Below the pieces are notes generated by a model. It saw only the letters and a list, made by a program, of their open reading frames with translations. It ran no database searches and was not told where the DNA came from. A program made the position numbers and the translations under genes. A stretch of 64,000 nucleotides of DNA from Bacillota bacterium (GTDB lineage: Bacteria > Bacillota > DSM-12270 > Thermacetogeniales > Thermacetogeniaceae): assembly GCA_013177945.1 (NCBI GenBank), contig JABLXW010000012.1:1-64000 (forward strand). Reading direction: 5' to 3'. Of this stretch, positions 1,563 to 30,151 are shown one piece after another; within the stretch, counting starts at the first letter, position 1; each line of letters starts with the position of its first letter.

Positions 1563-3200
1563 TTATGCAGGCTGGAGGGCGCGGCGGGAAAGCGGCCCGG
1601 GAAGCCTCTCCACATGCCGGCTCTGGTAGACCCGGTAATCTATTTGGGGAAAAATGTTGTCCTTCTGCTCTATTTCGGCGAGCCGGCCTTCGTTTATGGT
1701 GTTTCTCTTGATGCTTTCATAAAGCTCGGTGAAACAGGCAATGTGTTTTATCAAGCGCTGCCTGGCGTACTCCACCATCGTACCGGTCTTCATGATAAAG
1801 GGCCAGTCGCTGCTCTGGGCCAGCAGCAGCTCGCGGGCGGCCTGGTTGAGGGCGCGCTTCAGGGGCCCCTCTGCGTTTTCATATCTGTTGGCAAGTTCCA
1901 CCATGCGCTCTCCAGCCTTGTGCAGGTGCCGCCAGATCCAGTCGTTCGCCCCGTTCAGCCAGACTTCATGGTATCCCTTCCACCCCCAGCTGGATTCCGA
2001 AGGGGTGGAGACCTGATTGCAGGGGTAAATTTTGAGATACTCACCGGGTGTAATCATCTTGATCGTATTCTGGTCGTGGTGAATTTTCCGGATCAGATAG
2101 TCCAGCCACTGGGGCCCCTCAAACCACCAGTGACCGAAGAGTTCGGCGTCGTAAGGAGCAACGACAACGGGCTTTCGGTCAAGAATCTGGGCCAGCCACT
2201 CCACCTGCTTTTCTCTGTTGAACATGAAGTTCCCGGCGTGGAGGGCTGCTTTCTCCAGGGCGTTTTTTCTCACGTAAGGCTCTTTGTGGTCGGAAAGCCC
2301 GGTGATCCGGTAGTACTTGATCCCTGTGTGTGTCCGGATTCTCCCCTCAGGGAGATAGGGGCCGATGTAATCAAGATCGAGGTCGTATCCGATGTCCCGG
2401 TAAAAGTCGCGGTAGTCGAAGTCTCCCGGGTATCCTTCCCGGGCGCTCCAGACCTGTTTCGAGGATTCCACGTCCCTTCCAAAGGCGGCGACCCCGGATG
2501 GTGTGTAGACCGGAGCAAAGTAGCCGTATTTGGGACGGGGTGAAGCGTGGAGCAGCCCGTGGCTTTCGACAAAGAAATATTTAATGTCAAATTTCTTTAA
2601 GATCCTTTCATCCCCGGGCCGGTACCCGCATTCGGGAAGCCAGAACCCCTGAGGGCGGCGCCCGAAGTGTTGTTCGTACAGGGCGACGGCAACTGCCACC
2701 TGGGCGTGAATTATTTCCCGCTGCAATCCCAGAAGGGGAAAATACCCGTGTGTGGCGCCGGTTGTGATTATTTCTATTTTTCCTGAGTCCTGAAGCCGCT
2801 TGAAGGCCTGCACCAGGTTCCAGCGGTATTTTTCTGTTAGGAGGTGGTAGGCGCGGGAAAAGAGATCCCGGTACATCAGGGCATTCTCGTGAAACTCTGG
2901 CTGGTTTCTCGTCCGGACAACCTCGCGCTCTGCCAGCTCCATCAGCTTTTCCAGGTGCCGGACGCAGCGGTGGCGGAGGAGGTCGTCTGTGAGCATGGAG
3001 ATCAGGGTCGGGGAAAGGTTGAGAGTTATCCGGAAATCGACGTTGTCCTCCAGCAGTTTTTCGAAAGTCCACAAAAGGGGGAGATAGGTCTCCGCGACGG
3101 CCTCATAAAACCACTTCTCTTCCAGGAAATGTTCGTGTTCCGGGTGGCGGACGTAGGGTAAATGGGCGTGCAGAACGAGGCAAAGGTAGCCCTGGGTCAC
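1563..3200 (-). CDS. GH57 1,4-alpha-glucan branching enzyme
   Basis: This 545-residue enzyme belongs to glycoside hydrolase family 57 with the DUF1957 C-terminal region. It should form alpha-1,6 branches in glycogen-like alpha-glucan in the cytoplasm. The N-terminus holds the family LVLHAHLPYVRHPE motif. The nucleophile motif WLPECGY places Glu190. The acid/base motif PYDAELFGHWW places Asp351. The open frame extends 46 codons further upstream, but the GTG at 3200 is chosen because GGAAGGG lies about 8 bases before it and the protein then starts at the conserved LVLHAHLPY segment. It is in one direction with the DUF4912 protein (33 bases between them) and divergent from the GH15 enzyme, so the three probably serve alpha-glucan storage and use. 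Confidence 0.9.
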   Translation of the reverse strand: MTQGYLCLVLHAHLPYVRHPEHEHFLEEKWFYEAVAETYLPLLWTFEKLLEDNVDFRITLNLSPTLISMLTDDLLRHRCVRHLEKLMELAEREVVRTRNQPEFHENALMYRDLFSRAYHLLTEKYRWNLVQAFKRLQDSGKIEIITTGATHGYFPLLGLQREIIHAQVAVAVALYEQHFGRRPQGFWLPECGYRPGDERILKKFDIKYFFVESHGLLHASPRPKYGYFAPVYTPSGVAAFGRDVESSKQVWSAREGYPGDFDYRDFYRDIGYDLDLDYIGPYLPEGRIRTHTGIKYYRITGLSDHKEPYVRKNALEKAALHAGNFMFNREKQVEWLAQILDRKPVVVAPYDAELFGHWWFEGPQWLDYLIRKIHHDQNTIKMITPGEYLKIYPCNQVSTPSESSWGWKGYHEVWLNGANDWIWRHLHKAGERMVELANRYENAEGPLKRALNQAARELLLAQSSDWPFIMKTGTMVEYARQRLIKHIACFTELYESIKRNTINEGRLAEIEQKDNIFPQIDYRVYQSRHVERLPGPLSRRALQPA

Positions 3201-3232
3201 TTTACAAACCCTTCCTTTCGCGGTTAAAGTTT

Positions 3233-3946
3233 TTACCAATTCATTGGTGAGCCGATCAACGCCGGAGAACTGGGACCGGGGTAGACGCGTCCGATGCGTT
3301 CGTAGAGCCTTTTCTCGTATTCTGCGAGGAGCAGCCATTCTTCGTCAACAATTTCCGAAACCCGATCCCGGGGTGTGCTTACAAAGTTGGAGCGGGCAAT
3401 AAAGATATAGGTCCCATCGGGCAGGACGCGCCCCAGTTCCACGCAGAAGGTTTTGTCTGGCTCGCCGGTGTGGATGTACCAGTTGTTGGCATAGTCGTTG
3501 ATCGGAATTTCTACATAATCTCTGCTGTCAAAGAAGTAAAGGTTGGTTGCATTGTAAACCCGCAGGACGGGCCTCGATTCTTCCCAGGAGCGGGGGCCAA
3601 ACCGCTCTGCTAGCTCCCTCCTTTTTGCCTGGCTGATTTCCCAGTAGGCGAAGATCCAGTAAGGATCCCTGGCGAGGGCGACGATTTTACTTTCTCCGTA
3701 GGTCCAGGGAAGCTCGCAGGTTTCAGGTCTGGGAGCCTCCCGCTCCTCTTTGCCGATCAACGGTTTGGGCTGGGTTGCTGTGAACTCTTCAGCAGCTTCC
3801 ATGGGAAAGGGCTTCTGCTGCTTGGGATGCCGTTTTTCTTCTGGACTCTGGGGTTTTTGCTGGGGGAGTCCTTTTCTGGACATCAAAGACAAGCCTCCTA
3901 AGACTAAAATTGCAAAAAATAAAAGCAGAAAGTCTATCAGGGCCAT
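3233..3946 (-). CDS. Membrane-anchored DUF4912 protein
   Basis: The 237-residue product begins with a single membrane segment (residues about 3-20, LIDFLLLFFAILVLGG). A charged proline-rich linker follows, then a DUF4912 domain (about 95-215) with the typical stretch PYWIFAYWEIS and later RVYNATN. DUF4912 proteins are commonly found beside GH57 branching enzymes in Clostridia, but their role is unknown; carbohydrate binding is often supposed. The ATG at 3946 is chosen over an upstream extension because AAAGGAGGAGGGG lies just before it and the extension is basic, low-complexity sequence. It is cotranscribed with the branching enzyme on the minus strand, and its upstream region (3947-4121) is shared with the divergent GH15 gene. 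Confidence 0.8.
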   Translation of the reverse strand: MALIDFLLLFFAILVLGGLSLMSRKGLPQQKPQSPEEKRHPKQQKPFPMEAAEEFTATQPKPLIGKEEREAPRPETCELPWTYGESKIVALARDPYWIFAYWEISQAKRRELAERFGPRSWEESRPVLRVYNATNLYFFDSRDYVEIPINDYANNWYIHTGEPDKTFCVELGRVLPDGTYIFIARSNFVSTPRDRVSEIVDEEWLLLAEYEKRLYERIGRVYPGPSSPALIGSPMNW

Positions 3947-4121
3947 CGCAACGGTCCCCTCCTCCTTTCGGGAGCTGAACCCCATCGTTTTGGTTCGAAA
4001 GAGATTATTTTCCTTCCTGGTCGGAAAAATTAATTTAATAACGCGATTTCTGTTGGTATTATGTCCAAACCGAAAAGGGTTTATTTCAAGTCGGGGCCGT
4101 TTTGAAACAGGAGAGTGGTGT

Positions 4122-6092
4122 ATGCCGAGGAATTTGGTATTAGGCAACGGCAATATTTTGATTAATTTCGATCATGCCATGAACATGCGCGATCTTTATT
4201 TTCCCTACGTCGGGATGGATAACCACATCGCGGGGCACCGCTGCAGCATCGGCTTTTGGGAGGCAGGGAATTTTTCCTGGATTGACGAGGGGGTTTGGGA
4301 GAAAAGCCTGGGGTACCAGAAGGACACCCTGGTTACCCTGGTAAAGGCGAGAAATTTAGTGCTGGGCCTGACGGTTGTAATCAACGATGCCGTTCACCAC
4401 CGCTTCTCCATTTTTCTCCGAAGAATGGAAATTAAAAACCTCGAGAAGAGGGCCAGGAGCGTCAGGATTTTTTTTAACCACGATTTTTCTCTGGGCGGGT
4501 TCGATGTGGGGGACACCGCCCTTTACGACCCCACTTTAAAGGCTGTCTGCCACTATAAAAGAAATCGCTATCTTCTGGCAAACGGGAGGGTTCAGGGGAA
4601 GGGCATCTTTCAGTACGCGACGGGATTGAAGCGCTTCGGGGCGGCCGAAGGCACCTGGCGGGATGCGGAGGACGGCTGGCTGGAGGGGAACCCTGTTGCT
4701 CAGGGCTCTGTAGACAGCACCATCAGCTTTGAGGTGAGCCTGGAGCCCGGTGCGGCAGAAATCCTCTGGTACTGGCTTGTCATGGGCGAAAACTTCCGGG
4801 AGGTCCGGGAGCTGAATTACCTTGTCCTGGAGCGGGGGCCGGCGGCCCTCCTTGAAGAGACGAAAAACTACTGGTATCACTGGGTGAACAAGCAGGAACG
4901 GGACTTCGCCGACCTCCCCCCCAAAGTGTCAGATTTATTCAAACGAAGCCTGCTTGTGGTTCGGACCCAGTGCGACAACCGCGGGGCGATCCTTGCGGCC
5001 AACGATACCGATATTCTTGTGACCAACCGCGACCACTACAGCTACATGTGGCCGCGGGATGGTGCTTTAATTGCAATGGGGTTTGATAAGGCAGGGTATC
5101 CGGAGATCCCCTTGCGCTTCTTCCAGATGTGCGCCAGGATTCTCACCGAGGGAGGGTACTACCTTCATAAATACAACCCCGACGGTTCTGTAGGCTCCAG
5201 CTGGCACCCCTGGATCCATGAGGGCGAACTCCAGCTCCCGATCCAGGAAGACGAGACCGCCCTGGTGAATTACGCCCTGTGGAACCATTACTGCTGCTTC
5301 CGGGACTATGAGCTTGTGGAGTCTCTCTACCATGAAATGGTAAAAAAGGCGAGCGATTTTTTGGACCGCTACCGCGACCCGGCCACGAAGCTGCCGCTGG
5401 AGAGCTACGATCTGTGGGAGGAGAGAAGGGGTGTTTTCAGCTTTACGGCTGCCGCAGTCTACGCGGGTCTTGAGGCGGCCGCGCGCTTTGCGGATTTGTT
5501 CGGGGACTGCCGGGCTGCCGGGGTTTACCGCCGGGCAGCCCGGGAGGTCCGGGAGGGGATGGAGCGCTGCCTTTACAGCAGCGATCTGGGCCGGTTTTTG
5601 CGGGGGGTTTACCTCCGGCGCGGGGACCTGATCCCCGACTACACCCTGGATGCCAGCCTGTACGGGCTTTTTGCCTTTGGGGCTTTTGCGCCTGACGATC
5701 CCCGGGTCGTTCGCACGATGGAGGCGGTCCGGGAAGGGCTCTGGGTCAAAACCCAGGTGGGGGGGCTTGCCCGGTATACCGGCGACTGGTACTTCCGGAG
5801 AAGCGAAGATCTTGAAAAAGTTCCCGGCAACCCCTGGTTCCTGACAACGATCTGGCTCGGGGAGTGGTACATCGCGAAGGCCAGAACCAAAAAAGAGCTG
5901 GAGTATGCGAGAGCAATTCTGGAATGGGTGGCCGACCACCGCATGGAAAGCGGAATTCTATCCGAACAGATCCACCCCTACACGGGAAAGCCTCTTTCTG
6001 TGGCCCCCCTTACCTGGTCCCACGGCGCCTACGTGCTGGCAGTTGCCAACTACCTGGAAAAATACCACGCCCTGCAGGCAGCGGTAGAATAA
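4122..6092 (+). CDS. GH15 glucoamylase-like alpha-glucan hydrolase
   Basis: The 656-residue protein has the glycoside hydrolase family 15 layout: an N-terminal beta-sandwich (about 1-270) and an (alpha/alpha)6 barrel. Barrel motifs seen are YSYMWPRDGALIAMGF, an acid candidate in YDLWEE (Glu433/Glu434), a base candidate in GILSEQIHPYTG (Glu615) and the closing LTWSHGAYV. It should release glucose from the non-reducing ends of alpha-glucans; trehalase or glucodextranase activity is possible in this family. No signal peptide is visible, which points to the cytoplasm and intracellular glycogen. The open frame extends upstream, but the ATG at 4122 has an AGGAG site 9 bases ahead and gives the normal family N-terminus. 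It is divergent from the branching enzyme and DUF4912 gene. Confidence 0.88.
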   Translation: MPRNLVLGNGNILINFDHAMNMRDLYFPYVGMDNHIAGHRCSIGFWEAGNFSWIDEGVWEKSLGYQKDTLVTLVKARNLVLGLTVVINDAVHHRFSIFLRRMEIKNLEKRARSVRIFFNHDFSLGGFDVGDTALYDPTLKAVCHYKRNRYLLANGRVQGKGIFQYATGLKRFGAAEGTWRDAEDGWLEGNPVAQGSVDSTISFEVSLEPGAAEILWYWLVMGENFREVRELNYLVLERGPAALLEETKNYWYHWVNKQERDFADLPPKVSDLFKRSLLVVRTQCDNRGAILAANDTDILVTNRDHYSYMWPRDGALIAMGFDKAGYPEIPLRFFQMCARILTEGGYYLHKYNPDGSVGSSWHPWIHEGELQLPIQEDETALVNYALWNHYCCFRDYELVESLYHEMVKKASDFLDRYRDPATKLPLESYDLWEERRGVFSFTAAAVYAGLEAAARFADLFGDCRAAGVYRRAAREVREGMERCLYSSDLGRFLRGVYLRRGDLIPDYTLDASLYGLFAFGAFAPDDPRVVRTMEAVREGLWVKTQVGGLARYTGDWYFRRSEDLEKVPGNPWFLTTIWLGEWYIAKARTKKELEYARAILEWVADHRMESGILSEQIHPYTGKPLSVAPLTWSHGAYVLAVANYLEKYHALQAAVE

Positions 6093-24067: not shown

Positions 24068-25039
24068 ATTTTTTTCCAGATAGCAGGACTGGCTTCGGAA
24101 TTAAAAGAGCTCAATGGATTTTTGCAGCGGCGGAAAGAGGCGCGGGGAAGCTGGGAGGCCCGGCGGCGCAAAGCCCGCGAAAAGGGGAGCTTTTTCTCCC
24201 TCTGCCGCCTCAGCGGCGGGGAAATCCAGGAATTTTTTCGGGGCTCCTCCCTTGTGGGAGTTGACGGCTCTCTGAACACTTTTGGTGCCGCTTTCCCCTA
24301 CACCGTAACCTTTTTCCGGGCCCTTGCCCGCTCCTGCAGGGCCGGCGCAGAAGGGAAGCGGTTCTGGGCCCACCGGATCTTTTCCCCCCTTCTGCCGGAG
24401 CACCGGGCAAAGGTGGAGGAGAAGGTGAAGACCGGTCTTGACCCTGAGGAGGCCCTGGCGCGCCTCCGCTGGGAAACCCTCGCTGCCCTCGAAGCGGAAG
24501 CAGGAAGGCGCGCCCTGGAAGAAGAACACCCCCGCCTCCTTTTGTGGGACGGGGCTTTTGCCAGGCTCGAGGCCCATGCACCGCTGGTTTGGGAAGAGTT
24601 AAAGTCGTGCGCCTTGAGCCGGCGGACTTTGCTGCTGGGAGTAACCGAGGAGATTGCAACCAGTTCCTTTAGGGATCTCGGGGCCGGAATGATGGCGGAC
24701 CGGGAGATTTTGTACAGCCTGCTGCGGCCGGGGGAGGGGTTTCAGCTAAGGGAAGAAGGGCGCGAAAAGGTGGGGCGGGTTTACGTGCGCCTTGCTTCCC
24801 ACCCTCAGGTTATTGCGGTCGACTATCTTCCCGAGCAGAGAGGAGACCTTGCGACGGCTCTGAACTTTCTTTACACCATTACCCCGGAACACGGAAGGGG
24901 TTTTCCCCTCTGGCTTGATATTGTCGATGCCGAGGTCCGGTTCACGCGGGACCAGGTGGAGGTTCTGATCGCGAATTATCTGGATCCTGCGGTGACCGAA
25001 CTCTTCCTGCGGCCCTTGCGGGCGCGGCGGGATCTTTAG
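24068..25039 (+). CDS. nurA: NurA 5'-3' nuclease, probable ATT start
   Basis: NurA works with the HerA translocase in processing DNA ends for recombination. The 323-residue product has the NurA-domain acidic residues in LVGVDGS (Asp66), LLWDGAF (Asp161) and FPLWLDIVDAEV (Asp284). The frame is open upstream of the first standard start candidate (TTG at 24122, no ribosome site). An ATT at 24068 lies 7 bases after a strong AAGGAGG site and gives the N-terminus FFQIAGLASELKELNGFL. I therefore propose a rare AUU start. It is the first gene of a tight operon: herA follows after 12 bases, then the Mre11-like and Rad50-like genes. Confidence 0.82.
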   Translation: MFFQIAGLASELKELNGFLQRRKEARGSWEARRRKAREKGSFFSLCRLSGGEIQEFFRGSSLVGVDGSLNTFGAAFPYTVTFFRALARSCRAGAEGKRFWAHRIFSPLLPEHRAKVEEKVKTGLDPEEALARLRWETLAALEAEAGRRALEEEHPRLLLWDGAFARLEAHAPLVWEELKSCALSRRTLLLGVTEEIATSSFRDLGAGMMADREILYSLLRPGEGFQLREEGREKVGRVYVRLASHPQVIAVDYLPEQRGDLATALNFLYTITPEHGRGFPLWLDIVDAEVRFTRDQVEVLIANYLDPAVTELFLRPLRARRDL

Positions 25040-25051
25040 GAGGGCTTTTGG

Positions 25052-26905
25052 ATGCAGGTGGTAGGAGTAACAACCCAGCAGTATGTATACGTGGCATCCC
25101 GGGAGCGGAAATTCCGGATCAACGAAGTCCTGATTGTGGACGACCCGGAGCACGGATTCCCCCGCGGGGAGGTTGTTGAGACCAGGTCCTTCAACAGGTT
25201 CATCCCTCTCACCCTGGAGCGCAGCCCTTTAATCGATCCCGAGGTCTGGGAGGGATTGGAGCAGGTCGGTTTCAATCTGGGGGAAGAAACAATCCACCTT
25301 GCGAAGCTCCGGATTCTGAACGACCTTCCCGCCCCGGTGGCGGTTGGAGCGCGCGTCCGGGTGCCGGAGTTCGCCGAGGTCAGGGACCTTTTGCTGCCGT
25401 GCCATCCTGCTTCAGGTTTCGTCCTGGGCGTGCTTCTGGGAACGGAGGAGCTGAAAGCGGGGCTGCCTGAAGAACTCCGGGAAATTGCTCCCCTTTACAT
25501 AAAAGGGCAGGGGATTTTGCCCCAGAGCGGGGTGCCCTTTGTCTTCGATTACCGCGCCATGCAGGAGTACCCTCATATCGGGATCTTCGGGGGTTCGGGC
25601 TCGGGAAAATCCTTCGGGATGCGGGTGATTCTGGAGGAGGTTTTAGAAAAGAGAATACCTGCCCTGGTCTTCGATCCCCATTACGAAATGAGCTTTGCCA
25701 CACCCTTCGAAGGGATGGAGAGGGAGTGGGTCGATTCTTTTGCTTCCCGAACCGAAATCCTGACCGTCGGCCGCGACACCGGGGTAAGTTTTGAAGACCT
25801 GACAAGCAACGACCTCGCCTCCCTTATCCAGGCGGCAGGCGCGAACTATACCGAGGGAATGGATAACGCCCTGAAGGCGATCCACCAGGAGCGGGATTCC
25901 TTTGTAAGTTTTTCCCAGAAACTCGAAGATCTGATCGGCCTGGCCGAGAGGGAAGAAGAGACGCGGGAGCGCATCAGGCGCAGGTACGGAGAGAACTCCC
26001 GCTATGAAAAATCCCTGGAAGCCATGGCGCGTCAGGCCGGCCATCCCAGCAGCCTGCGGGGGATCCGGTGGCGTCTTTACCGCCTGGAACGGGAAGGAAT
26101 CTTTCAAAAGAACATCGAACCGATCATCAACGCCTTGAAGCACCGCCGCCTGACCGTGATTCGGGGCCCCATCTGGCTCCTCACGGTTTTCAGTGCTTAC
26201 CTCATCCGGAAGCTGTACCGGCTCCGGCGGGGCTACCAGGATGCCCTGCAGCGGGGGGAGGCACCCGGAGAGAGGTTTCCGCCTTTTTTAATCGTTACCG
26301 ATGAGGCCCATCATTTTGCCCCAAAGAGTTTTGAAATCAACGCTCCGGCGCGCGGGATTTTCCGGGAAGTGGCTCAGGAGGGCCGGAAGTACGGGGTTTT
26401 CCTGGTTCTGGCCACCCAGCGCCCGGCCCTTCTTGACGAGACTGTCACCGCCCAGTTGAACACGAAAATCATTTTCAGGACGGTGAGGGCTACCGATATC
26501 GGTGTCATCAAGGAAGAAACCGATATCACGCGTGAAGAGGCGGAGCGCCTCCCCTATCTGAGTTCGGGTACGGCTTTTATCTCCTCTGCTGTTGTGGGAA
26601 GGACGGTTGCGGTGCGGATCCGCTGCGCCCGGACCAGGCCCCCCCATGCGGCAAATCCTTTTGCCGAGCTGGAGGAGGAATCCCAGACGGCCCGCGAGGA
26701 GATCTGGCGCCTGCTGGTGCAGTATTTGCCGTTGCACGCCGGGCAGGTTAATTTGTACCTCCCCGAATTCGAGCGCGCCCTGAACCGGCCCGTCACCTTT
26801 AACGAGGTCTGGGAGTGGCTGGAAGAATTTGCTGCTGCCGGAAGGCTTGAAAAGGAAGAAGGGCCCTTCGGCCCCACCTACTCTTTGCGTGAGGAAGAAA
26901 TCTAA
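25052..26905 (+). CDS. herA: HerA DNA translocase
   Basis: The 617-residue protein is a HerA-type hexameric ATPase of the FtsK/HerA group. It has an N-terminal HAS-barrel-like beta region (about 1-110), Walker A GGSGSGKS (180-187) and Walker B LIVTDEAHH (Asp417, Glu418). It also has VFLVLATQRPALLDETVTAQ, containing the arginine-rich sensor region of the family. A C-terminal helical extension (about 530-617) follows. HerA pumps DNA to the NurA nuclease. Its ATG has an AGGAGG site, and its stop is one base before the Mre11-like start, so expression is coupled. The order nurA-herA-mre11-rad50 resembles the archaeal end-resection operon. Confidence 0.93.
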   Translation: MQVVGVTTQQYVYVASRERKFRINEVLIVDDPEHGFPRGEVVETRSFNRFIPLTLERSPLIDPEVWEGLEQVGFNLGEETIHLAKLRILNDLPAPVAVGARVRVPEFAEVRDLLLPCHPASGFVLGVLLGTEELKAGLPEELREIAPLYIKGQGILPQSGVPFVFDYRAMQEYPHIGIFGGSGSGKSFGMRVILEEVLEKRIPALVFDPHYEMSFATPFEGMEREWVDSFASRTEILTVGRDTGVSFEDLTSNDLASLIQAAGANYTEGMDNALKAIHQERDSFVSFSQKLEDLIGLAEREEETRERIRRRYGENSRYEKSLEAMARQAGHPSSLRGIRWRLYRLEREGIFQKNIEPIINALKHRRLTVIRGPIWLLTVFSAYLIRKLYRLRRGYQDALQRGEAPGERFPPFLIVTDEAHHFAPKSFEINAPARGIFREVAQEGRKYGVFLVLATQRPALLDETVTAQLNTKIIFRTVRATDIGVIKEETDITREEAERLPYLSSGTAFISSAVVGRTVAVRIRCARTRPPHAANPFAELEEESQTAREEIWRLLVQYLPLHAGQVNLYLPEFERALNRPVTFNEVWEWLEEFAAAGRLEKEEGPFGPTYSLREEEI

Positions 26906-26906
26906 A

Positions 26907-27896
26907 ATGCGGTTTTTGTTTCTTACCGACGATCACAAAAGGGGTACAACCCCTGCGAACCGGAAAGACAATTTTCCCGCCACCCTGGCGGCCAAACTCC
27001 GGGAGGTAGTGGAAATTGCCCGGGAGCGGGAGGTTGATTACATCTTGCACGGAGGGGATTTTTTCGATGTTCCTGCACCGTCCCTCAGTGTCTGCGCCGA
27101 TTTCCTCGAGATTTACCAGCAGTTCCCGGCGCCGGTTTACACCATTGCCGGAAACCACGACCTTTTCGGACACAACCAGGAGACGCTGCCCCGGACGATG
27201 CTGGGTTTTGTAGCGCGCCTGGGAATTGTACATCTGGTCGGAAGGGAGCCTGTCTATTTAGAAAAAAACGGGATCCGCGTTCAGCTGACGGGCCAGGGGT
27301 ACCATTTTGAGATGGACCGCCGGGATCCGAAAAAGGATTATGTGGTGCAAAAAAAAGATTGCGATTTTGCGATTCACCTCGTGCACGGGATGCTGCTGGA
27401 CCGCGTCTGCTTCCCCGGCCCCTTTTACACCCTGGTCGAGCAGATCTGGGAAACGGAAGCCGATTTTACCCTGGCGGGCCACAACCACCTGGGCTTTCCG
27501 GACACAGAAAGAGATGGCAAGTTCTTTCTCAATCCAGGCGCGCTCGCCCGGCTTTCAAGCCACCCCGCCGAAATGAGGAGGCCGGTTCAGGTGGTCCTGA
27601 TCGATTTTTCCGGAAGCAGGCCCGTTTACGAAAAGATCCGCCTGATAAGCGCCCCTCCGGGTGAAGAAGTCCTCGATCGGAGCCATCTGGAAGAGGCTGC
27701 TTTTCGGGAACAGCGGCTGGCCGGATATCTTGCGGAGGTCAAGGCTGCCGGCTCTTACCAGCGCACCGATGTCCGCCTTTTGATTGAAGAAATCGTCCGG
27801 GCAGAAAAGCTTGACCAGAGGGTGAGAGAAGAAGCGTTAAGGCGCATTGCCCGGGCCGAGGAGGCGCTGGCGCGGGGGGAGGAGGAAGAAGCGTGA
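26907..27896 (+). CDS. Mre11/SbcD-like DNA-end nuclease
   Basis: The 329-residue protein is a calcineurin-like phosphoesterase of the Mre11/SbcD group. Metal-binding motifs are TDDH (residues 7-10), HGGDFFD (Asp51), AGNHDLFG (82-85), LVHGML and LAGHNHLG. A helical C-terminal part (about 235-329) could be the Rad50-contact region. Mre11 opens DNA ends together with a Rad50 ATPase. The ATG at 26907 gives the typical MRFLFLTDDH start and has GAGG upstream; the frame is open further but overlaps herA. It overlaps the Rad50-like N-terminal gene by four bases, supporting a complex between them. Confidence 0.87.
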   Translation: MRFLFLTDDHKRGTTPANRKDNFPATLAAKLREVVEIAREREVDYILHGGDFFDVPAPSLSVCADFLEIYQQFPAPVYTIAGNHDLFGHNQETLPRTMLGFVARLGIVHLVGREPVYLEKNGIRVQLTGQGYHFEMDRRDPKKDYVVQKKDCDFAIHLVHGMLLDRVCFPGPFYTLVEQIWETEADFTLAGHNHLGFPDTERDGKFFLNPGALARLSSHPAEMRRPVQVVLIDFSGSRPVYEKIRLISAPPGEEVLDRSHLEEAAFREQRLAGYLAEVKAAGSYQRTDVRLLIEEIVRAEKLDQRVREEALRRIARAEEALARGEEEEA

Positions 27897-29197
27897 GTTT
27901 CCTGCGCAGAGTCGTTGTGGACAATTTCCAGTCCCACGAGCATACAGAGCTTACCCTGGAACCGGGTTTGAATGTAATTGTAGGCCCTTCCGACTACGGG
28001 AAATCTGCTCTGGTCAGGGCGCTCCGCTGGCTTTTTTACAACGAGCCCAAGGGGGCGAACTTTATCCGCGTTGGGGCGCGCGCTGTGCGCGTGCTCGTGG
28101 AATTCGACGACGGGACGAAATTGCAGCGCCTCCGGGATACAGGAGGGAAGAACCGCTACATTTTGCAGCGGCCTGGTGAGGAAGAGAAAATTTACGAGGG
28201 TTTCGGAGGGGATGTTCCGCACGAAATCATCCTCGCTTCGGGAGTCCGGAAGGTTTTCATAGATGAGCGCAACAGGGTTGAATTGAACCTGGGGGGCCAG
28301 CTGGAAGCACCCTTTCTCCTGGCCGAGAACGGCGCGGTCCGGGCCAAGGTGATCGGGCAGCTGGGTGGCGTGCACATCCTCGACTGGGCCCAGAAATCCG
28401 TGGGGACGGACCTCAGGCGCCTGCGCGAGGAGGAAAACCGGTGCAGTCTCAACCTTAAAAATCTGGAAACAGCCCTTCATGCCTACGATCATCTGCCCCG
28501 CCTTGAAGCCCAGATCCGGGATCTGGAAGAAGCGGCTGCCAGGGCAGAAGCAATCACCAACACCATTGATGCTCTGAATGAGATCCAGAACCAGTGGAAT
28601 GAACTGGAAAGCGCCCTGAAGGAGGTGGAGAGCCGCCTTGAGGCGCTCGCCCTTTTGGATCAGGCCGAGGCCCGGCTCCAGGGGCTTGAAGCTTGCCTGC
28701 AGGAATACAGGGACCTGGTGCTCCTCTGCGCCGAAATGGAGGAGACCGAACTTCAGTTGAAAAAGGTGGAAGAAATTCTTGAAAAAACGAGTTCGGTTCC
28801 TGCTGCGGAAATTCTTGCGGCGAAGCTGGAGGTGCTTACCGGGCAGTTAAACGACCTCCTCCAGATTGCCCGGGAGGCGGATGCCGTTGCGACTCTCCTT
28901 GTCAGGGCGGCCCGCGTTGTGGAGCGCACCGGAGCGCTGGAGAGGGCGGAAAAACAGGTGACCCTCATTTCAGATCTGGTCCAGCAGATCCGGATTTACC
29001 AGGAGATGTGGAAAGCCTGGCAGGACCACGAGCGGGAGTACCGGGGAGCCTGTGCTGCCGTTGCGCGTTGCCAGAAGGAGATGGAGAAGCACCTTGCGGA
29101 TTTTCGCCTGCTTCTCACAAAGCTTGGGAGGTGTCCCGTCTGCTTTGGGGAACTGACGCAGGAGGCGGTGGCGCGGGTGCTTGCCGAATACCAGTAA
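27893..29197 (+). CDS. Rad50/SbcC-like ATPase, N-terminal half with zinc hook
   Basis: This 434-residue protein is only the first half of a Rad50-type SMC ATPase. It has the N-terminal nucleotide-binding lobe with Walker A GPSDYGKS (31-38) and a Q-loop region, and a long coiled coil (about 170-405). Near its end is CPVC (Cys414, Cys417), the zinc-hook motif found at the tip of Rad50. It stops 17 residues after the hook, so the returning coil and the second ATPase lobe are absent. Those lie in the next two genes. There is no sign of a simple frameshift: the next gene has its own ribosome site after 25 bases. The gene overlaps the Mre11-like gene by four bases. Confidence 0.85.
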   Translation: MSFLRRVVVDNFQSHEHTELTLEPGLNVIVGPSDYGKSALVRALRWLFYNEPKGANFIRVGARAVRVLVEFDDGTKLQRLRDTGGKNRYILQRPGEEEKIYEGFGGDVPHEIILASGVRKVFIDERNRVELNLGGQLEAPFLLAENGAVRAKVIGQLGGVHILDWAQKSVGTDLRRLREEENRCSLNLKNLETALHAYDHLPRLEAQIRDLEEAAARAEAITNTIDALNEIQNQWNELESALKEVESRLEALALLDQAEARLQGLEACLQEYRDLVLLCAEMEETELQLKKVEEILEKTSSVPAAEILAAKLEVLTGQLNDLLQIAREADAVATLLVRAARVVERTGALERAEKQVTLISDLVQQIRIYQEMWKAWQDHEREYRGACAAVARCQKEMEKHLADFRLLLTKLGRCPVCFGELTQEAVARVLAEYQ

Positions 29198-29222
29198 GAG
29201 GATACCGGGAGGAGGAGAAATT

Positions 29223-29501
29223 TTGCAGGAGCAAAAAGAGCAGGTTCTGTACGAAAAGCAGGTCAACCACCTGAAGGAGGCGTTGCGCAGGTCCCGCGAC
29301 CTGAGGTCGCGCGCCCTGAGCCAGAAGGAATTGCTTGAGAAGCAGCGGGAAAAGCTTTACCAGAAGGCAGCGGAATACGGCGTCAAACCCGAGGAGTTGG
29401 GCGAGAAAATTGCGGCATTGAAAGGCGAGCTGAACCGGCTTCTCGAGGAGGCCCGGAAGCTGGTCCCCTGGGATCTCCTGGAAAAGGAGCGGATTGAGTG
29501 A
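29223..29501 (+). CDS. Small coiled-coil protein between Rad50 halves
   Basis: The 92-residue protein is nearly all helix, rich in Glu, Lys, Arg and Leu with heptad-like spacing (QVLYEKQVNHLKEALRRSRD, later KIAALKGELNRLLEEARKL), so a coiled coil is expected. It has no cysteine. It could supply part of the coil returning from the zinc hook of the preceding protein. The TTG at 29223 is chosen because GGGAGGAGGAG precedes it. It ends in a GTGA overlap with the C-terminal half gene. I know no named family for it; the function is inferred from position. Confidence 0.65.
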   Translation: MQEQKEQVLYEKQVNHLKEALRRSRDLRSRALSQKELLEKQREKLYQKAAEYGVKPEELGEKIAALKGELNRLLEEARKLVPWDLLEKERIE

Positions 29502-30151
29502 GACAGAATCTGGCTTCTCTGAAAAATTCCCTTGAACTTATGAAAGCCCTTTACCACAGGCAGCGGGGGGAACAGGCAAAGCTCCTCCAGGAAAAAGCCG
29601 CCCTGGAGAATCGCCTCCGAGAGGTTCGGGAAGAAATCGAATGCCTGGAAAAGGTGCGCCTCCTCCTATTGGAGGCGGCAAAACACGCGCGGGAACAGGG
29701 TCGCCGCCAGGTGGAGTTTCTTGTTACCCAGGCCCTGCAGTTTGTTTTCGGAGGGGATCTGGAGTTCAGGGTGAAGGTGGAAGAGAAGAGGGACCGGCCC
29801 GAAGCGGAGTTTTACGTTTGCTCCACCTATGGCGGAGATTTCAAGGTCGAAACCACTCCCCAGGATGCACGAGGGGGCGGGGTGGTTGATGTGATTTCCC
29901 TTGCCCTGCGGCTTGCCCTTCTGCATGCCTTCCGTCCTCCTCTGGGGGGGCCTGTAATCCTGGATGAACCGGCAAAACATGTTTCCGAGGAATTTTCGCC
30001 CCAGGTGGCCCGCTTCTTAAAGAGTTTCAGCCAGAGCCTCGGCCGCCAGATCATTATGGTTTCCCACAACCAGCACCTGGCGGACTCGGCCGATGTTGCC
30101 TATTTGGTGGAGATGCAGCAGGGAAGAAGCAGCGCAAGACGCATTCGGTAG
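29498..30151 (+). CDS. Rad50/SbcC-like ATPase, C-terminal half
   Basis: The 217-residue protein holds the second half of a Rad50-type ATPase: a short coiled coil (about 5-70), then the C-terminal lobe with the ABC signature GGGVVDVISLALRLAL (126-141) and Walker B VILDEPAKH (Asp156, Glu157). A switch histidine follows in IIMVSHNQHLAD. Walker A is absent, so it needs the product of the gene at 27893 to form an ATP site. The GTG at 29498 overlaps the previous stop (GTGA) and has AAAGGAG upstream. Together the three genes look like a Rad50 split into separate polypeptides. Confidence 0.85.
   Translation: MRQNLASLKNSLELMKALYHRQRGEQAKLLQEKAALENRLREVREEIECLEKVRLLLLEAAKHAREQGRRQVEFLVTQALQFVFGGDLEFRVKVEEKRDRPEAEFYVCSTYGGDFKVETTPQDARGGGVVDVISLALRLALLHAFRPPLGGPVILDEPAKHVSEEFSPQVARFLKSFSQSLGRQIIMVSHNQHLADSADVAYLVEMQQGRSSARRIR

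Follow-up and report, generated by a model that had tools for sequence, protein, structure and literature searches.

The thermophilic archaea carry a nurA–herA–mre11–rad50 cluster in which Rad50 is encoded by one gene (PMC8708640, PMC2288612), and the operon analysed here unites the same four functions, departing from that arrangement in its three Rad50 genes, a glycine-rich signature, an asymmetric coil and a 92-aa protein, here called mid. The bacterial SbcC–SbcD system likewise combines an ABC ATPase bearing a CxxC hook with an Mre11-type nuclease, but SbcC is a single chain with coil strands of near-equal length (13 controls), whereas here the pieces lie in separate genes in all intact loci. 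In Deinococcus, NurA and HerA form a bacterial pair that resects DNA ends (PMC9960219), the operon being described there without Mre11–Rad50 pieces. Crystals of the Pyrococcus furiosus Rad50 head (1f2t, 1f2u, 1ii8, 3qkr) hold the N- and C-lobes as separate chains making up one ATPase; that split was made in the laboratory, with the coil removed, whereas the present one is natural and retains both hook and coil. No split Rad50 or SbcC was found described in our literature searches. A central open question is how Rad50 relays information between its ATPase heads and the hook along the coils. The arm considered here is naturally cut at two fixed points (one just past the hook, the other inside the return coil), kept in phages and bacteria, and the natural series from no arm through a balanced arm to one with ~+1 to +4 units would offer a testbed for the roles of coil continuity and length.

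The operon occupies positions 24068–30151 of the window (the whole stretch of 64,000 nt that was analysed) and comprises six forward-strand ORFs encoding NurA, HerA, Mre11 and, as three genes, Rad50. A sequence-only reading had proposed these six ORFs, and we find all of them at the positions it gave, with the tight spacing it described: 12 nt between nurA and herA, 1 nt between herA and mre11, 25 nt between rad50N and mid, and 4-nt GTGA overlaps at mre11/rad50N and mid/rad50C. The first gene, nurA (24068..25039, +), encodes a 5'–3' nuclease of 323 aa (Pfam NurA, 1.4e-13) if read from an ATT start codon, which is also found in a same-genus relative; the first common start codon is TTG at 24122, and orthologues in the same place are 53–62% identical. 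The adjacent herA (25052..26905, +) encodes a hexameric ATPase/translocase of 617 aa (Pfam DUF87/HerA central domain, 2.4e-18; NCBIfam HerA models, 1e-17, under cut-off), so that by Pfam the HerA ATPase core and the NurA domain are encoded side by side. The mre11-like gene (26907..27896, +) specifies a nuclease of 329 aa (Pfam Metallophos, 1.5e-11) in which the calcineurin-type phosphoesterase motifs DxH, GGDxxD, GNHD, H and GHxH are visible in alignment; its PDB matches are the Thermotoga and Pyrococcus Mre11 proteins (2e-6 to 7e-6), and against the SbcD model TIGR00619 it scores 30 bits, failing the cut-off of 77.65 bits.

The two lobes of the Rad50 ATPase are encoded apart. The 434-aa rad50N (27893..29197, +) matches the N-lobe chains of P. 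furiosus Rad50 in PDB profile searches (2e-9), PHROG 16465 (1.6e-73) and Pfam AAA_23 (7e-14), with Rad50_zn_hook at 0.002, under its own cut-off. As the sequence-only reading had described, Walker A (GPSDYGKS, residues 31–38; 27983..28006, +) is followed by an ascending coil and a zinc hook (CPVC, residues 414–417; 29132..29143, +), and the chain stops 17 residues past the hook. The 217-aa rad50C (29498..30151, +) consists of a return-coil helix and the C-lobe: its PDB profile matches are P. furiosus Rad50 C-lobe chains (7e-12), Pfam recognizes the C-part of SMC_N (3e-5), and its AF2 model (pLDDT 91; helix at residues 2–84, then the C-lobe) matches Rad50/SMC C-lobes in Foldseek. That reading was also right in placing the signature (RGGGVVD, residues 125–131; 29870..29890, +, by alignment to PfRad50) and Walker B (PVILDEPAK, residues 152–160; 29951..29977, +) in this half, where an H-loop (SHN) is found as well, and in giving mid 92 aa. 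The bipartite ABC head is thus complete, with Walker A and Q-loop in rad50N and signature, Walker B and H-loop in rad50C, and its catalytic residues are invariant across 43–45 diverse sequences (G31, G36 and K37 of Walker A in 43 sequences, G127, G128 and D131 of the signature in 45, and Q136 of rad50N, D156 and E157 of rad50C; H190 of rad50C is conserved in at least 90%). The hook cysteines C414 and C417 are invariant too, a CxxC hook occurs in 70 of the family's 71 rad50N proteins, and no SMC hinge domain appeared in the Pfam scan of the locus proteins, the hook standing in its place. The canonical LSGGE signature is not present: its serine position is Gly in nearly the whole family, and given this substitution the ATPase behaviour may differ.

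The ascending coil of rad50N (about residues 160–411; 28370..29125, +) is delimited by the AF2 helices of the L015 model, a lag-47 self-similarity peak and a hydrophobic period of 3.36, and appears to be made of ~47-residue units. The mismatch with the return strand noted from the letters alone is real: ~254 aa ascend and ~166 aa return in the window, and comparison with 13 canonical SbcC controls, whose two strands differ by -54 to +23 aa, bears out the conclusion that a normal Rad50 cannot be reassembled from these pieces. Across the family the return strand keeps to 135–187 aa, while the hook-bearing strand ranges over 126–353 aa in steps of ~47. This step rests on clusters at ~382, 428 and 478, on insertions in loci L017–L019 and on the lag-47 peak; when the coil lengths were put to a Rayleigh test, 47 did not stand out, the score climbing with the period, and the surplus is only loosely integral in whole units (on average 0.17 away from an integer, where chance would give 0.25). 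The stepped strand mismatch is not explained by standard Rad50 models, and what is new here, as read from the sequences, is this mismatch in ~47-residue steps together with a sister family without an arm.

We lean, by a modest margin, towards a Rad50 that is obligately three-subunit and has a modular arm, in which ~47-residue units of the hook strand go unpaired with a near-fixed return strand made of mid and the C-half, so that the arm would contain an N–N, multi-mid or otherwise non-canonical segment rather than a conventional two-stranded antiparallel coil, and its length could evolve through rad50N alone. As to what the surplus units do, we suggest tentatively that they may pair with those of a second protomer, giving a two-helix N–N segment between normal head-proximal and hook-proximal coils. 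The hydrophobic periodicity is coherent over ~225 residues of the N coil, and the tolerance of single-unit steps speaks against a fold-back antiparallel hairpin in every unit; however, AF2 interrupts the L015 coil at residues 299–312 (pLDDT ~40), which could be an elbow instead. It is rather unlikely that the ascending coil is coated by multiple copies of mid, roughly one to each 47-residue unit, with a constant mid serving any N-half length. The first helix of mid (~49 residues in the AF2 model of L015) is close to the 47-residue step, mid hardly varies in length, unlike the rad50N coil, and no mid gene was found beside the relatives that lack coil and hook; but in most cases mid overlaps rad50C or lies flush against it, suggesting 1 : 1 synthesis, the shortest family (L123) has a mid and zero surplus units, and the hydrophobic periods are unlike (~3.55 in mid, 3.36 in the N coil).

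The mid gene itself (29223..29501, +) starts with TTG preceded by a ribosome site, GGGAGGAGG, and encodes a helix, a GVKPEEL turn and a second helix; the protein is 72–83% identical in close relatives and 25–37% in distant ones, and matches PHROG 18563 (6e-6). A mid-equivalent ORF is present even in the most divergent phages. Its apparent absence from short-coil phages was an error of the first HMM, which had missed a 79–83-aa helix-turn-helix gene upstream of the C-half, as reading the ORFs in the cases examined made clear. An AF2 model of N-half plus mid (L015, read through the stop; pTM 0.36) leaves mid unplaced, with pLDDT mostly 46–62.

There are good grounds to think that the six genes encode the machinery resident in this Clostridia lineage for processing the ends of double-strand breaks, with a Rad50 of three non-covalent subunits. 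Mre11 and the three-subunit Rad50 would form the end-binding ATPase–nuclease, and the HerA–NurA ring would perform long-range resection. Each ABC head would be built from the rad50N N-lobe and the rad50C C-lobe, with ATP sandwiched by two heads in the usual way and Mre11 docked at the root of the coil. The hook would be carried outwards by the rad50N coil, and mid (putatively hook-proximal) together with the first 60–70 residues of rad50C (head-proximal) would supply a return strand whose length is nearly fixed, leaving ~0–4 × 47 residues of hook strand without a partner according to lineage, about four such units in L017 and about two here. Since neither SbcD nor AddA was found over cut-off in the genome itself or in 19 same-family genomes, judging by gene content the operon is probably the resident end-resection machine of this genome and family. 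The two other SMC-like ORFs of the genome that were examined as candidates for a second canonical SbcC proved to be something else: one, lying in a defence-type island, encodes a TrlF-like ATPase, and the other an unrelated AAA ATPase. A role in defence or phage conflict rather than housekeeping repair could be entertained in view of the family's spread in phages and its occurrence on large plasmids, but we think it improbable, given the missing SbcD and AddA, the presence of the Rad50-piece genes in nearly all same-family genomes, adjoining nurA–herA, and the grouping of most chromosomal copies in the tree. In 15 loci, drawn from 10 families, nurA–herA is the immediate upstream neighbour, and about half of the chromosomal copies are without an adjacent nurA–herA.

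The split is neither peculiar to this bacterium and its operon nor a recent break, as the wording of the sequence-only reading had implied, and belongs instead to a widespread Bacillota and phage family in which the three-piece state is old. Wherever the neighbourhood of a bacterial locus is intact (~30 loci, closed genomes among them), all three pieces are present, and the Rad50 halves are separate in all 55 viral loci, with no single-chain, coil-bearing homologue found among them; a fused Rad50 gene in close relatives, which would have pointed to an assembly error, is therefore not seen. The only fused relatives are the coil-less Mre11–Rad50 proteins of one family, the sister family, in which coil, hook and mid have disappeared and Mre11 is joined to both Rad50 lobes. 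That a single Rad50 is still made by programmed frameshifting or stop-codon read-through might be argued from loci L015, L016, L020 and L071, where N-half and mid share a frame, and from the 4-nt overlap of mid and C in close relatives. We reject it as very improbable, as the earlier reading did: the N-to-mid frame varies (out of frame in the window and L010, in frame in L015), as does the stop codon (TAA, TAG or TGA), each gene has its own start with ribosome sites visible, and in phages either junction can be occupied by whole genes (HNH/AP2, an ORF of 1168 aa resembling DNA polymerase III, a ParB-like ORF), those inserted at the breaks often being of the HNH/AP2 homing type. Decay or misassembly, brought to mind by the fact that split genes often reflect decay and by a truncated second copy in G006 (L059), can be set aside almost entirely, since the breakpoints are the same in ~30 bacterial loci, including the single-contig genomes G006 and G055, and in 55 viral contigs, and the catalytic residues are invariant.

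The same pieces are represented by three PHROG families listed apart, with no note that they belong to one Rad50: 16465 ('exonuclease') matches rad50N, 15167 ('ATPase') rad50C and 18563 (no function label) mid. Their matches suggest that these unlinked families, two of them labelled only exonuclease and ATPase, are parts of one complex. Two phages have Mre11 fused to rad50N, and one family has it fused to both lobes, which indicates that the Mre11 and Rad50 pieces go together. Bacillus phage vB_BboS-125 carries the same split. For Bacillus phage 0305phi8-36, a study of Mre11/Rad50 fusions in 2011 reported one P-loop segment to be missing (PMC3175470). The phage protein A7KV18, a 769-aa Mre11–Rad50N fusion, is a member of the split-Rad50 family, and the ATPase half was reported missing because the C-half sits in a separate downstream gene (L076:5995-6705).

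The analyses presented here, in which the gene order noted in the sequence-only reading was sought among GTDB relatives, in a phylum sample and in viral loci, establish that the three-piece split of Rad50 is old and general. Re-reading of the window found the six ORFs (24068–30151; nurA, herA, mre11, rad50N, mid and rad50C) where they had been placed, with the overlaps, motifs and lengths claimed for them. Domain scans recovered NurA, HerA, a calcineurin-type (Mre11) nuclease and the N-terminal and C-terminal pieces of an SMC/Rad50 ATPase, and no known domain in the 92-residue mid protein. Among close relatives (GTDB genomes) mre11, rad50N, mid and rad50C are separate genes at every locus with an intact neighbourhood, with 4-nt overlaps mostly at mre11/rad50N and mid/rad50C. 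The C-half is present in 18 of 19 sampled relatives of the same family and in 65 of the 398 genomes of the phylum sample (in all but three as an open frame shorter than 320 aa), and complete reading of about 30 bacterial neighbourhoods, with single-contig genomes among their sources, showed the three Rad50 pieces. The apparent start of nurA is the rare codon ATT (24068–24070), behind a good ribosome site; ATT also stands at this position in a same-genus relative (L055).

The three pieces match three phage families in PHROGs (rad50N, 16465, ‘exonuclease’, 1.6e-73; mid, 18563, 6e-6; rad50C, 15167, ‘ATPase’, 3e-58). The 55 viral loci returned by a C-half scan of IMG/VR never have both halves in one ORF. 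The mid HMM missed mid in about 10 of the viral loci, and reading the ORFs of the divergent cases revealed a helical gene of 79–83 aa upstream of the C-half each time; at L110 no N-half was found within the stretch fetched, and at L115 the C-half is itself interrupted. Named phages with the pieces include Bacillus phage vB_BboS-125, which also has an unannotated Mre11 gene downstream, in the gp36–gp37 gap (L022:7927–8901; NC_048735.1 22426–23400). Nine Bacillota plasmids also match, annotated mostly as hypothetical. In a C-half tree with several weakly supported branches, most chromosomal copies group together, apart from most phage copies; a small number of prophage-like copies fall with the phages, and a small number of viral contigs with the chromosomal set. 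One genome (G006) has an intact chromosomal copy and a second, prophage-type copy that appears to be decaying, its C-half and Mre11 truncated (L059:8243–11155).

In profile searches of the PDB, both halves align with Pyrococcus Rad50, the N-half on its N-lobe chains (2e-9) and the C-half on its C-lobe chains (7e-12). The lobes are already separate chains in these crystals, so a head can function when divided. AF2 predicts the C-half with confidence (pLDDT 91) as a single helix (2–84) followed by the C-lobe, and its nearest structures are SMC and Rad50 heads. Walker A, the Q-loop, Walker B, the hook cysteines and the Mre11 motifs are kept in relatives; one real difference from Rad50 is RGGGVVD in the window C-half in place of the canonical ABC signature LSGGE.

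Recoding into one Rad50 is rejected, and the earlier view that the breaks are not a frameshift holds, because the N-to-mid reading frame and the N stop codon vary among close relatives and whole genes are inserted at phage junctions. HNH/AP2-type genes (assigned by scan in L022, and alike by eye in L094, L102, L103 and L106) lie between N and mid in phages (L022/L086, L094, L102, L103, L106), exactly at the break in L086:5113–5685, L094:5035–5574, L102:4235–4759 and L106:4999–5700. A viral contig carries a DNA polymerase III alpha-like gene of 1168 aa in this interval (L085:2174–5680), and a ParB-like ORF separates mid and C in a bacterial prophage-like copy (L057). The homing-type HNH/AP2 genes at the N–mid break suggest how the split may have originated in phages, where they may have caused the first separation of the genes.

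As had been claimed, the ascending coil of the window outruns the downstream coil, with a surplus of about 88 aa, close to two units of 47. Measured at 38 loci as the distance from Walker A to the hook less 129, the ascending strand has 126, 179–198, 234–254, 293–303 or 344–353 aa; the return strand, counted as the residues past the hook plus mid plus the pre-head part of the C-half, has 135–187 aa (SD 56 versus 12). The two strands of 13 canonical SbcC proteins from the same phylum vary together in length, from 268/259 to 434/454, and differ by −54 to +23. Relative to the window, L018/L019 have one extra block of about 47 aa and L017 has two; coil self-similarity peaks at lag 47 (z 3.1, 60 lags), and the hydrophobic period is 3.36 (= 47/14), versus 3.45 in SbcC controls. 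The strands are balanced in the smallest version (L123). Length steps of one unit argue against simple back-folding of every unit. An AF2 model of N plus mid (L015, stop read as Gly; pTM 0.36) has the N-lobe, long helices at 201–298 and 313–411 and then the hook, with mid left without placement.

Loss of the coil also occurs. Three genomes of family f44, with no mid gene found nearby, encode Mre11, N-lobe and C-lobe as one protein of about 690–700 aa without coil or hook (frames of 686–702 aa; L149:3758–5818, L150:6652–8760, L151:6583–8682), a natural minimal Mre11–Rad50. Mre11 is fused to rad50N in two phages (L076 and L079). The L076 fusion (2669–4978) has 769 aa, the length of A7KV18, so that L076 is very probably Bacillus phage 0305phi8-36. 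A 2011 paper on Mre11/Rad50 fusions remarked that one P-loop segment of SbcC was not seen in this phage (PMC3175470); the C-half, present as a separate gene (L076:5995–6705), explains the gap.

No account of a Rad50/SbcC split in nature turned up among 5.39 million open papers; a review does record NurA–HerA from Firmicutes. Given that nurA and herA lie directly upstream of the Mre11–Rad50 pieces, the operon is most simply read as the probable chief system for end resection, which would match the archaeal arrangement (PMC8708640). Its own genome has no SbcD match except the window Mre11 (30.7 bits; cut-off 77.65) and only UvrD-sized AddA matches; none of 19 same-family genomes exceeds the SbcD or the AddA cut-off. 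Among 61 genomes AddA is above cut-off in 22 and SbcD in 16, all outside the family. AddA-like ORFs of some 1100 aa (80–170 bits) do occur in part of the family, and these members may thus possess a divergent AddA. Elsewhere in the window's own genome (L067; G000:C2:16000–26000) lies an apparent defence island, which on sequence reading encodes a methyltransferase-like protein, a TrlF-like ATPase, a PglZ-like protein and a BrxL-like protein.
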